Assembly: GCA_021826695.1 (NCBI GenBank)
Contig: JAKAYS010000005.1
Location: 1 to 48,894 of the forward strand
DNA: 48,894 nucleotides
Origin: Acidobacteriota bacterium
Lineage (GTDB): Bacteria > Acidobacteriota > Terriglobia > Terriglobales > Acidobacteriaceae
Direction: 5' to 3'
Shown here: piece by piece, positions 34,272 through 37,042 of the stretch
Layout: each line of letters opens with the position of its first letter
How positions within the stretch are numbered: the first letter of the stretch is position 1
Notes under the pieces: model-generated
The model's database searches: none
Seen by the model: only the letters and a program-made list of their open reading frames with translations
Told to the model about the DNA's origin: nothing
Position numbers and translations under genes: made by a program

Positions 34272-34817
34272 TTAGCTGGCGAACAGCCGTTCCTGCTCGG
34301 CGGTGTCCAACTTGCGCCGGGTGCTGGGATGGATGACCGCGACGATTTCTAGCGACTGCAGGGCGGTTCGCGGAACAAAAATTCTCTGCGTGTTGGACCG
34401 CATGTCCGGTGGCGCGAACTGGACCCCTTCCGGCTCCAGCAGAGAAACGTCGTTGCTGGCCAGCCCTTCCAATTCCTCTCCATCGCGCAGGCGCATACGC
34501 AGCCATAATCCCGCAGTACGTGGGCGCGAGCTGAAACTGCGTCGCAGCAGCCGTTCTGGGTCGGTCGCGTCGCCAGTCAGAAATTCTCGCACAAAGCACA
34601 CCATCTTGACTTCCTCCAGCGCCATGGCGAGCACCTTGCCGGTCATGTCCAGCAGTTCCAGCTTGCCGTGGTGGGCGAAGCCCTGCGGATCGACGTAGCC
34701 GGACTGCCAGTCGCGGCTGAACTTGCGGACGATCACTTTTTTTCGACTTGAAACCGAAACTCCCACACCATGCTCCCGACTTTTGCGCGAAACTCTGGCC
34801 CCGAAACCTGGCCCCAT
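34272..34817 (-). CDS. unrecognised conserved-type protein with PilZ-like strand pattern
   Basis: The 181-residue protein is mainly beta and charged. Segments are KKVIVRKFSRDWQSGYVDPQ, GKLELLDMTGKVLAMALEEV and KMVCFVREFL, then LWLRMRLRDGEELEGLASND and IFVPRTALQSLEIVAVIHP. Similar proteins are found in Acidobacteria without known function; I believe this is the DUF6982 type, from memory. No clear PilZ motif (RxxxR / DxSxxG) is present. ATG 34817 is used, but a GTG at 34766 preceded by GGGAG gives a start closer to the conserved part. Confidence 0.6.
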   Translation of the reverse strand: MGPGFGARVSRKSREHGVGVSVSSRKKVIVRKFSRDWQSGYVDPQGFAHHGKLELLDMTGKVLAMALEEVKMVCFVREFLTGDATDPERLLRRSFSSRPRTAGLWLRMRLRDGEELEGLASNDVSLLEPEGVQFAPPDMRSNTQRIFVPRTALQSLEIVAVIHPSTRRKLDTAEQERLFAS

Positions 34818-35002
34818 AACTTAGCAGGGATTGTCGCATGAAGCGCAACCGGCGCAGCGTAAATTGTGCAACTGAATGGAAAAATACCCTTCAGTGTGGT
34901 ATTGTAGAACATTGTGTGTGCGACGAAGTCGCTTACATCTAATTGAAAGTAATGGCTTTAGCGGCGCGAACATTATGCTGCTGGCCGAGGCGAAAACTGG
35001 GC

Positions 35003-37042
35003 ATGCCCGATTATATCCAACTGCTCGAATCCAAACTTTCTCCCAATCAAAAACAAGCATTGAACGCCATGACCGATGTGGCGCGGGCGCGGGGTATCAC
35101 GGTCTTTCTGACCGGCGGGGCGGTCCGAGATATTGTCAGTGGCGCTTCCGTGCGGGACCTGGACATCACCGTACAGGCCAACCCGCTCAAGTTTAAGAAA
35201 GATTTAGAAAAGGCGGGCTTCGCCATCACCGGCGAGCATGAGCCGTCACAGACGGTCTACCTGCGATTCGACAAGCAGGCGCGTGTGGAAATCTCAGCAA
35301 GCCGCACAGAAAATTTTCCCAAGCCGGCGCGACCGGAGTACAAGCCCGCGGGAATCCTGGAAGATTTGCGTCGGCGCGACTTTACCGCGAATGCGATGGC
35401 GTTGTCGCTGAATGAAGGCTCCTGGGGGCTGATGCTCGATCCGCTGAATGGCATGGCGGACATTTCCTCGCGGCAACTGCGGCTGGTCGGCAATTATGGT
35501 TTTCTTGAAGATCCTGTCCGCATGGTCCGCGCCACGCGTCTGATCTCCCGCACCGGTTGGGAGATGGAAGAGCGCACGAAAGCGCGTTACGACAACGCGA
35601 AATCGGAAGGCGTCATCAGCGCCATTACCGCCGTGCAGCGCGGCTACGAGCTGGAGGAAATTGCGTATGAAGAAGAGCCTCTACAGGTAATGAAAGCGCT
35701 GGAGACAGAAGGCTGGATGGAACATCTGTCCCCCGCCTGGAACAGCCGTTCTGTCGACGCGCAGGGACTGGAGCGGCTGCATGAGCGTCTGGTGCAACTG
35801 CTGATGGCCGGTTTGCACCCCGATCCATCGGCGGCGCAATTTCGTTTGCTGACGGCCAAGCTTTCGTCGAGCCACCTTGCGGCGCTGAAGCGTCTGTTCG
35901 TGCGGAGCGATCTATTGAAGCAGGCACAGGCGCTGGACGAGGACGCGAAAAAGATACTGCAACAGATCAGCGCCAAAGATGCGGCCAAGCCTTCGCAGTT
36001 GTGGAAGCTGCTGCACAGCGCCAAGCAGGATGCCGTGCTGTGGCTCTTCTTTACTGGCAAGGGAGTGACCATACAGAATCGGTTTGAGAATTTCTTTACC
36101 AAATGGCCGGAAGCGCGCCAGAAAATCCCCAACGCCATTTTGCAGGACATGCGCATTTTGCCGGATGTTGAAGGCTACGCCGAGTTGCTCGACAAGTTGA
36201 CGTTTGCATTTATGGATGGTGAACTGCCGAATGAAGAGGCGATCCGTAAGTTTGCAGAACCGTACTCACCCCCTGCGCCGCCTCCGCCGGTAATTGTTCG
36301 CCGTGCCCGCGCCGTGAAGCGTGTGGTCGATCCGAAGGGAAAGGCCAAAGGGAAAAAGGCCGCGAAGAAAGCTGAGGAAGCAGCGGAAGAAATCAGCCTG
36401 GCAGCGGAAGCGAACGGTGTTGCCCCAGGGCCAGTTGCGGAACTGGCGGCAGCGTCGCCGACAGCAAAAGCAGCGGGTGGGAAAGGCGCCTCAGCGAAGA
36501 CGGTCGTGGCCGAACCGCTAGCCGCGAAGTCTGTCTCGAAAGCCCCGACCAAGGTCGCGGAAAAGCCCGGCGCATCGAAGCAGGTTGCGAAGGCGGAAGC
36601 CCTGCCAGCAAAGGCCGCCGCGCCGGAGAAGAAGAAGCCGGAGAGCAGTAAATTAGCTGCCGGAAAGCCAGTCGCCAAGGGAGCTTCAGGAGCGAAGAAC
36701 GGCAGCAAATCTACAACAGTCATCAAGACTGCGAAAGTCACGAAGAAAGCAAATGGAGCGGTCAAATCCGGCGCCAAGGCGAGCCACACAGAGGCAACTT
36801 CAAGGACGAAAAAGCCTGCGAAATCCTCTGCGAGGACGCATGTATCGGCCAAGCCCGCCCATAAGGCTGTGACGAGGAAGACATCTGCTTTCTCTGCAAA
36901 AAAGGTGGGAAAGCACGCGGTAAAACCGGCGGCGAAAAAAGCTACCGCTCCGTCCCGCAAGAAGTCCTCGACCAAACCGGTCATGAAATCCAAGGGAAAA
37001 GCCTCGGCAAAGACGTCGGGGAAGAAGAAGTCTGGCCGCTAG
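35003..37042 (+). CDS. cca: CCA-adding / poly(A) polymerase family nucleotidyltransferase with basic C-terminal tail
   Basis: The family adds CCA to tRNA ends or A-tails to RNA; which one cannot be decided here. The nucleotidyltransferase core has FLTGGAVRDIVSG, then R51-D52-L-D54 as metal ligands, and the head motif LRRRDFTANAMAL (about 122-134). An RNA-binding helical region (DPVRMVRATRLISRTGWEME) follows. From residue 422 to 679 the protein is a low-complexity tail rich in Lys, Ala, Ser and Pro, resembling histone H1 or AlgP. The usual family length is about 400-450, so the tail adds about 258 residues. ATG 35003 gives a plausible family start. Confidence 0.88.
   Translation: MPDYIQLLESKLSPNQKQALNAMTDVARARGITVFLTGGAVRDIVSGASVRDLDITVQANPLKFKKDLEKAGFAITGEHEPSQTVYLRFDKQARVEISASRTENFPKPARPEYKPAGILEDLRRRDFTANAMALSLNEGSWGLMLDPLNGMADISSRQLRLVGNYGFLEDPVRMVRATRLISRTGWEMEERTKARYDNAKSEGVISAITAVQRGYELEEIAYEEEPLQVMKALETEGWMEHLSPAWNSRSVDAQGLERLHERLVQLLMAGLHPDPSAAQFRLLTAKLSSSHLAALKRLFVRSDLLKQAQALDEDAKKILQQISAKDAAKPSQLWKLLHSAKQDAVLWLFFTGKGVTIQNRFENFFTKWPEARQKIPNAILQDMRILPDVEGYAELLDKLTFAFMDGELPNEEAIRKFAEPYSPPAPPPPVIVRRARAVKRVVDPKGKAKGKKAAKKAEEAAEEISLAAEANGVAPGPVAELAAASPTAKAAGGKGASAKTVVAEPLAAKSVSKAPTKVAEKPGASKQVAKAEALPAKAAAPEKKKPESSKLAAGKPVAKGASGAKNGSKSTTVIKTAKVTKKANGAVKSGAKASHTEATSRTKKPAKSSARTHVSAKPAHKAVTRKTSAFSAKKVGKHAVKPAAKKATAPSRKKSSTKPVMKSKGKASAKTSGKKKSGR

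Follow-up and report, generated by a model that had tools for sequence, protein, structure and literature searches.

tRNA nucleotidyltransferases are commonly regarded as indispensable catalysts that can hardly vary. The closest known relatives of the protein studied here are the A-adding enzyme of Aquifex and the CCA-adding enzyme of Thermotoga (PDB 1vfg, 4wby, 3h37 and 5hc9), which share with it a four-domain fold (residues 1-422 of our protein), motif A and the RRD and EDxxR motifs. Among the bacterial enzymes, the deletion of a loop between the motif A region and RRD marks the CC-adding type, and the B/A Arg-x-Glu pair has been tied to the positioning of tRNA-CC for A addition (PMC7014341). 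The protein described in this work differs from the Aquifex and Thermotoga type in that it is devoid of the N-terminal half found in the NF041569 model and in relatives of about 880 residues from other Acidobacteriota, its family adds a long Lys-rich tail, and several lineages of this family have altered catalytic residues.

Tails of this kind have been described in other proteins. The Lys-rich C-terminal repeats of Streptomyces topoisomerase I (TopA) stabilise the enzyme on DNA and confer processivity (PMC7398561), and snoRNP enzymes are concentrated at nascent rRNA by disordered Lys-rich arms (PMC11528048). The actinobacterial topoisomerase I resembles the present case as a nucleic-acid enzyme with a Lys-rich, histone-H1-like C-terminal extension; however, it is a DNA enzyme of unrelated fold, and its tail has been shown to serve the catalytic cycle (PMC7398561). 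The KKE/D domains of the eukaryotic snoRNPs are also disordered Lys-rich arms of proteins acting on structured RNA, with the mixture of acidic and basic residues that is found in one clade here, but they are eukaryotic and nucleolar and show no homology (PMC11528048). A literature search, made mostly among papers available without subscription, returned no account of the family, nor of tailed or inactive tRNA nucleotidyltransferases, which is weak evidence of novelty.

This report covers the gene found in a stretch of 48,894 nucleotides from an Acidobacteriaceae genome (contig JAKAYS010000005.1), hereafter the window, together with its homologues in the class Terriglobia.

The gene and its enzyme core

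According to the list of open reading frames, a forward open frame of 699 codons (34943-37042, +) holds one gene. Its coding sequence was set at 35003-37042 (+), from the ATG at 35003 (MPDYIQLLES...), a start common to the homologues, to the TAG stop at 37040-37042, and encodes 679 amino acids. The initial annotation named the product a CCA-type nucleotidyltransferase, which is right as to the fold. Residues 1-421 (35003-36265, +) make up a complete class II tRNA nucleotidyltransferase with head, neck, body and tail domains: the head belongs to PF01743 (E 2.7e-22; 79.9 bits against a curated cut-off of 23), the CCA-adding enzyme of T. maritima (PDB 3h37) matches residues 28-414 (E 8.6e-32) and the Aquifex A-adding enzyme also matches residues 1-421. 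The AlphaFold2 model has pLDDT values of about 90-97 per ten-residue block across most of residues 11-430, and its residues 1-422 superpose on 3h38 with a Z score of 24.3 over 403 aligned residues, which recovers the four-domain fold; the large rmsd of this comparison (16.5) presumably reflects domain movement.

All the catalytic elements can be recognised in the alignments. Motif A (LTGGAVRDIVSGASVRDLDIT; 35108-35170, +) has an intact DxD (D52 and D54); the third carboxylate E96, the B/A residues R101 and E103, the flexible-loop stretch and RRD (residues 124-126) are present at 35288-35380 (+), and motif D, EDPVR (residues 169-173; 35507-35521, +), is intact as well. With this set complete, the window protein looks catalytically intact. 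The loop measures 22 residues from R101 to RRD, a length that differs by no more than one residue from that of the A-adding enzyme of Aquifex, and the deletion that is the hallmark of bacterial CC-adding enzymes was looked for in the window protein and not found. The plain reading of the window gene is that its product is probably active in A or CCA addition and bears an arm for holding RNA.

Two observations leave room for A, CCA or poly(A) as the product of the window enzyme. Firstly, none of the NCBIfam models for A-adding enzymes, CCA-adding enzymes and PcnB assigns the protein at its curated cut-off. The A-adding model NF041569 gives 103.9 bits against a cut-off of 1440 bits that applies to the whole 880-residue protein, with a match restricted to profile positions 453-867, and the poly(A) polymerase PcnB model (TIGR01942) gives 68.4 bits against 305.65. 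Secondly, the genome holds another class II nucleotidyltransferase, of the HD type, whose motifs are intact and whose loop has its full length. This second enzyme, located outside the window (G000:C114:2446-3159, L001), has the PolyA_pol head domain like the window protein, but differs from it by its HD domain, the absence of a tail and an identity of only about 29%. In each of the 24 genomes examined the HD-type paralogue has an intact motif A, EDxxR and HD motifs, and a Lys-rich tail is absent from the HD-type nucleotidyltransferase of these genomes. On the simplest reading, CCA ends can come from the HD-type enzyme, and L001 is probably the main CCA-adding enzyme of its genome.

Anatomy and maintenance of the tail

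The codon of residue 422 begins at 36266, which leaves a tail of exactly 258 residues before the stop. The initial annotation had described this segment as a Lys/Ala/Ser/Pro-rich, disordered, histone-H1-like tail, and composition, coordinates and structure prediction bear it out. The tail contains 21% K, 23% A, 10% S and 9% P, with 5% D+E and 4% hydrophobic residues (FILMWYC), and its net charge is about +50. The pLDDT falls below 50 for nearly all of residues 445-679, hence disorder is predicted, and both features are those of the basic Lys/Ala-rich extensions of the histone-H1-like or Lys-repeat kind. The nucleic-acid binding that the initial annotation expected of such a tail would fit this picture.

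Two parts can be distinguished in the extension. The Pro-rich junction (residues 422-436, SPPAPPPPVIVRRAR; 36266-36310, +) is its sole strongly conserved sequence, and in 36 aligned proteins it follows the pattern (Y/F/H)SPPAPPPPVxx(R/K)RxR, where P423, P424 and P426 are invariant and P427, P428 and R434 are each conserved in at least 90%. The remainder (residues 437-679; 36311-37039, +) is the Lys/Ala/Ser/Pro-rich disordered tail, of which the composition rather than the sequence is conserved. As the Lys-rich part starts only after the known fold is complete (3h38 aligns to residues 1-422), it neither replaces nor interrupts the enzyme. On the opposite strand, an open frame of 272 codons (36175-36993, -) mirrors the Lys/Ala codons of the tail; it is most likely a by-product of this codon usage and was not counted as a gene.

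The tail was looked for in 80 named loci, which their title or similarity places in Acidobacteriaceae or elsewhere in Terriglobales. In all 77 closed homologues from these loci the core is followed by 91-313 further residues (median 217), with a median charge of +23, so the absence from close relatives that the initial annotation had considered does not apply. Every closed genome of the same family has the tail, which is short but basic in one of them (G304), and wherever the Pro junction is present the final 60 residues are basic (at least +0.18 charge per residue). Tail identity is 38-63% where that of the core is 83-91%, and the composition is kept despite this divergence. Between congeners, dN/dS is 0.20-0.37 in the tail, which indicates purifying selection there, and 0.03-0.12 in the core. 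These figures are rough given the uncertain tail alignments and a number of synonymous distances close to saturation. Unconstrained drift simulated at the observed synonymous distance yields about nine stops and 3% Lys. Conservation, dN/dS and this simulation reject read-through or a chance open frame, and by these comparative criteria the tail is translated and maintained. An origin by DNA tandem repeat or slippage was likewise rejected, given that no array was found.

Lys-rich tails are not a genome-wide fashion either. In a background sample of 1.1 Mb, made up of the window and 53 pieces of 20 kb from one complete genome of the same family, the criterion for Lys/Ala low complexity was passed by three of 987 open reading frames, two of them family members and the third a pseudouridine synthase, and the tail used as query against the window's own genome recovered only itself, with no second copy. 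This synthase (L112:633-1556), named RsuA/RluB-like from its sequence, has a shorter Lys-rich C-terminal end and is, besides the family itself, the sample's one tailed protein.

Distribution and origin

The gene is present in 178 of 200 genomes of the class Terriglobia, many of the records being metagenome assemblies. Long arms are typically found in the window's family. Proteins of families f6 and f8 stop close to where the fold does, those of f5, f7 and others carry basic ends of variable length, and over the wider class the tail ranges from nearly nothing to more than 300 residues; judged by this range, the protein can be retained without a long arm. Outside the class, Acidobacteriota have related enzymes of either about 440-540 residues or about 880 with an extra N-terminal half, and none of the A-adding-type enzymes examined there carries a Lys-rich tail. 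The tail is therefore a lineage-specific addition rather than a feature of the enzyme family at large. A phage origin was rejected, as the match of phage tRNA nucleotidyltransferases, with an identity of about 30%, extends over only around half of the core.

The A-adding-type enzyme of other Acidobacteriota (loci L193-L205) often has about 880 residues, with a long N-terminal half that bears a DHH motif in several of them and is missing in Terriglobia. The records of loci L129 and L147 bear the names Rhodanobacteraceae and Verrucomicrobia, which are probably wrong, since their versions of the gene are typical of Acidobacteriaceae and group within them.

Catalytic residues across the tailed family

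The active site is far from uniform among the 133 aligned members. The DxD and the third carboxylate are as in the window protein in 86; in another 26 the acidic residues are swapped, most of them reading ExE or DxE together with D at position 96 and GG changed to GD in motif A, often accompanied by EDxxR changed to xxxxL; and 21 have a non-acidic residue at one of the three positions. The enzymes with exchanged acidic residues (ExE/D or DxE/D) may not be fully dead and may retain activity. The strongest changes concern family f2, where RTLDF, RVLDF, RHLDF, ILSLDF, RFLHF or RLLNF stands in place of RDLDI, D52 is replaced by T, V, H, S, F or L, E96 by Arg, and RRD by RRG. By these residues, the f2 members (L037-L041, L044, L045, L049-L053 and L055) are apparent pseudo-nucleotidyltransferases. 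In the f2 pairs tested the core is under purifying selection.

A quick tree with some long branches, built without these columns, requires three or more separate alterations of DxD, each of them imposed by branches with support. The core dN/dS of the DxD-altered lineages is 0.05-0.14, a sign of strong purifying selection, therefore these genes are not decaying. A fourth lineage, that of Granulicella, Edaphobacter and Terriglobus, mostly keeps DxD and has lost the B/A Arg-x-Glu pair. In members of this type (L118, L119, L122, L126, L129 and others) the pair beside the flexible loop is replaced, for example ARTE by TLSV, and in L140, L142 and L145 the third carboxylate is missing in addition.

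Most DxD-altered members keep the arm or a basic end, and some have only short or Arg-rich ends. Their median tail is longer than that of the remaining members (255 against 192 residues). One large clade has an acidic block inserted between the junction and the basic end, with a median of -0.38 charge per residue there in the DxD-altered members that bear the junction, and the whole tail is net negative in three members of the named set. In the clade with this core-proximal acidic block and net-negative tails, the arm may have another partner. It is also in this clade that the exchanged catalytic residues are still mostly acidic.

The neighbouring DUF6982 gene

Upstream and divergent from the nucleotidyltransferase gene lies a gene (34272-34817, -) for a DUF6982 protein (PF22478, E 2.9e-47) with two small beta-barrels. 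It occupies this position in 71 of the 80 named loci, and it is also found near the nucleotidyltransferase gene in other families of the class. Its model consists of two five-stranded barrels with a weak resemblance to tandem Tudor/Sm-like folds (best E 2e-3), and some members of the class have either gene alone. Given this weak fold match and imperfect co-occurrence, DUF6982 was rejected as a partner of known function, and it is no more than a candidate partner of the tailed nucleotidyltransferase.

What the tail may do

We propose, with about an even chance of being right, that the tail is an electrostatic RNA-holding arm without sequence specificity, attached to the tRNA-binding end of the fold and useful independently of nucleotide addition. 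The body and tail domains of the fold would dock on the acceptor/T-psi-C half of a tRNA-like RNA, the Pro-rich Arg-Arg junction would space the Lys-rich arm off the folded body, and the arm would grip the surrounding RNA and keep the protein at RNA-rich sites. Two tested cases of Lys-rich arms, on Streptomyces TopA (PMC7398561) and on the snoRNP enzymes (PMC11528048), speak for such a role. The analyses show the anatomy, the predicted disorder, the conservation, the selection and the repeated change of the active site; RNA as the ligand, this docking geometry and the independence from catalysis are what we infer. The last element follows from the fact that the arm is kept where catalytic residues are lost or altered and the motifs of the HD-type paralogue are intact: an arm that outlives the active site would not be merely a helper of nucleotide addition. 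The window's own genus has an intact active site, and the enzyme that bears the arm there is probably still able to add A or CCA.

The initial annotation had suggested that the tail serves an RNA 3'-end enzyme, by raising RNA affinity or acting in polyadenylation, and this part of it is weakened by the persistence of the tail where the catalytic residues are gone or changed. A catalytic aid, by which the attached enzyme would add A, CCA or poly(A) with higher affinity or processivity, as the Lys repeats allow in Streptomyces topoisomerase I, agrees with the complete motifs of the window enzyme and has a tested precedent in TopA (PMC7398561), albeit on DNA. Nevertheless, the altered-DxD members keep the tail, often in a longer form, and the f6 relatives with intact DxD have no long tail, which makes this explanation unlikely.

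The strong conservation of the Pro junction, the best conserved part of the extension, might instead point to a docking site within a condensate or protein-protein element, in which the patterning of acidic and basic blocks, side by side in one clade, would drive self-association or bind an acidic partner. The snoRNP Lys-rich domains do self-associate (PMC11528048); however, the conserved neighbour DUF6982 is no more than a candidate partner, and we consider the proposal improbable. Much the same holds for a tether to DNA or the nucleoid, in the manner of histone H1, HupB and other Lys/Ala-rich bacterial DNA-binding tails. RNA and DNA are indistinguishable as ligands from the composition of the tail, which is like that of such histone-H1-like tails and gives DNA no preference over RNA, but the folded part is an RNA-end enzyme and a DNA-binding domain is absent, so this tether is a slightly poorer candidate still. 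Finally, a functionless low-complexity sequence drifting under a weak solubility constraint would account for the poor conservation of the tail relative to the core, but it is very improbable, as composition, basic end and junction are kept family-wide, the tail dN/dS is well under 1, and drift would add stops and lose Lys.

Going beyond the RNA-holding arm itself, we tentatively suggest, as a possibility that we hold with less than even confidence, that the family is being repurposed from a tRNA-end polymerase into a non-catalytic RNA-binding pseudo-nucleotidyltransferase with a Lys-rich arm, such as an RNA chaperone or a retention or surveillance factor. Catalysis would have been lost several times, with CCA addition left to the HD-type paralogue alone, and the window gene would represent a lineage whose active site is still intact.

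Implications

As a practical caution, the second PolyA_pol gene of Acidobacteriota should not be labelled as CCA-adding or A-adding by similarity alone. If the tailed family has been repurposed, it would offer a clean system for testing what disordered Lys-rich arms do on bacterial RNA enzymes. If true, nature would here have run an experiment in the conversion of an RNA polymerase into an RNA-binding protein, with a family of a major soil phylum in which the tRNA-binding fold and a long Lys-rich arm are retained and the catalytic residues repeatedly change or disappear.
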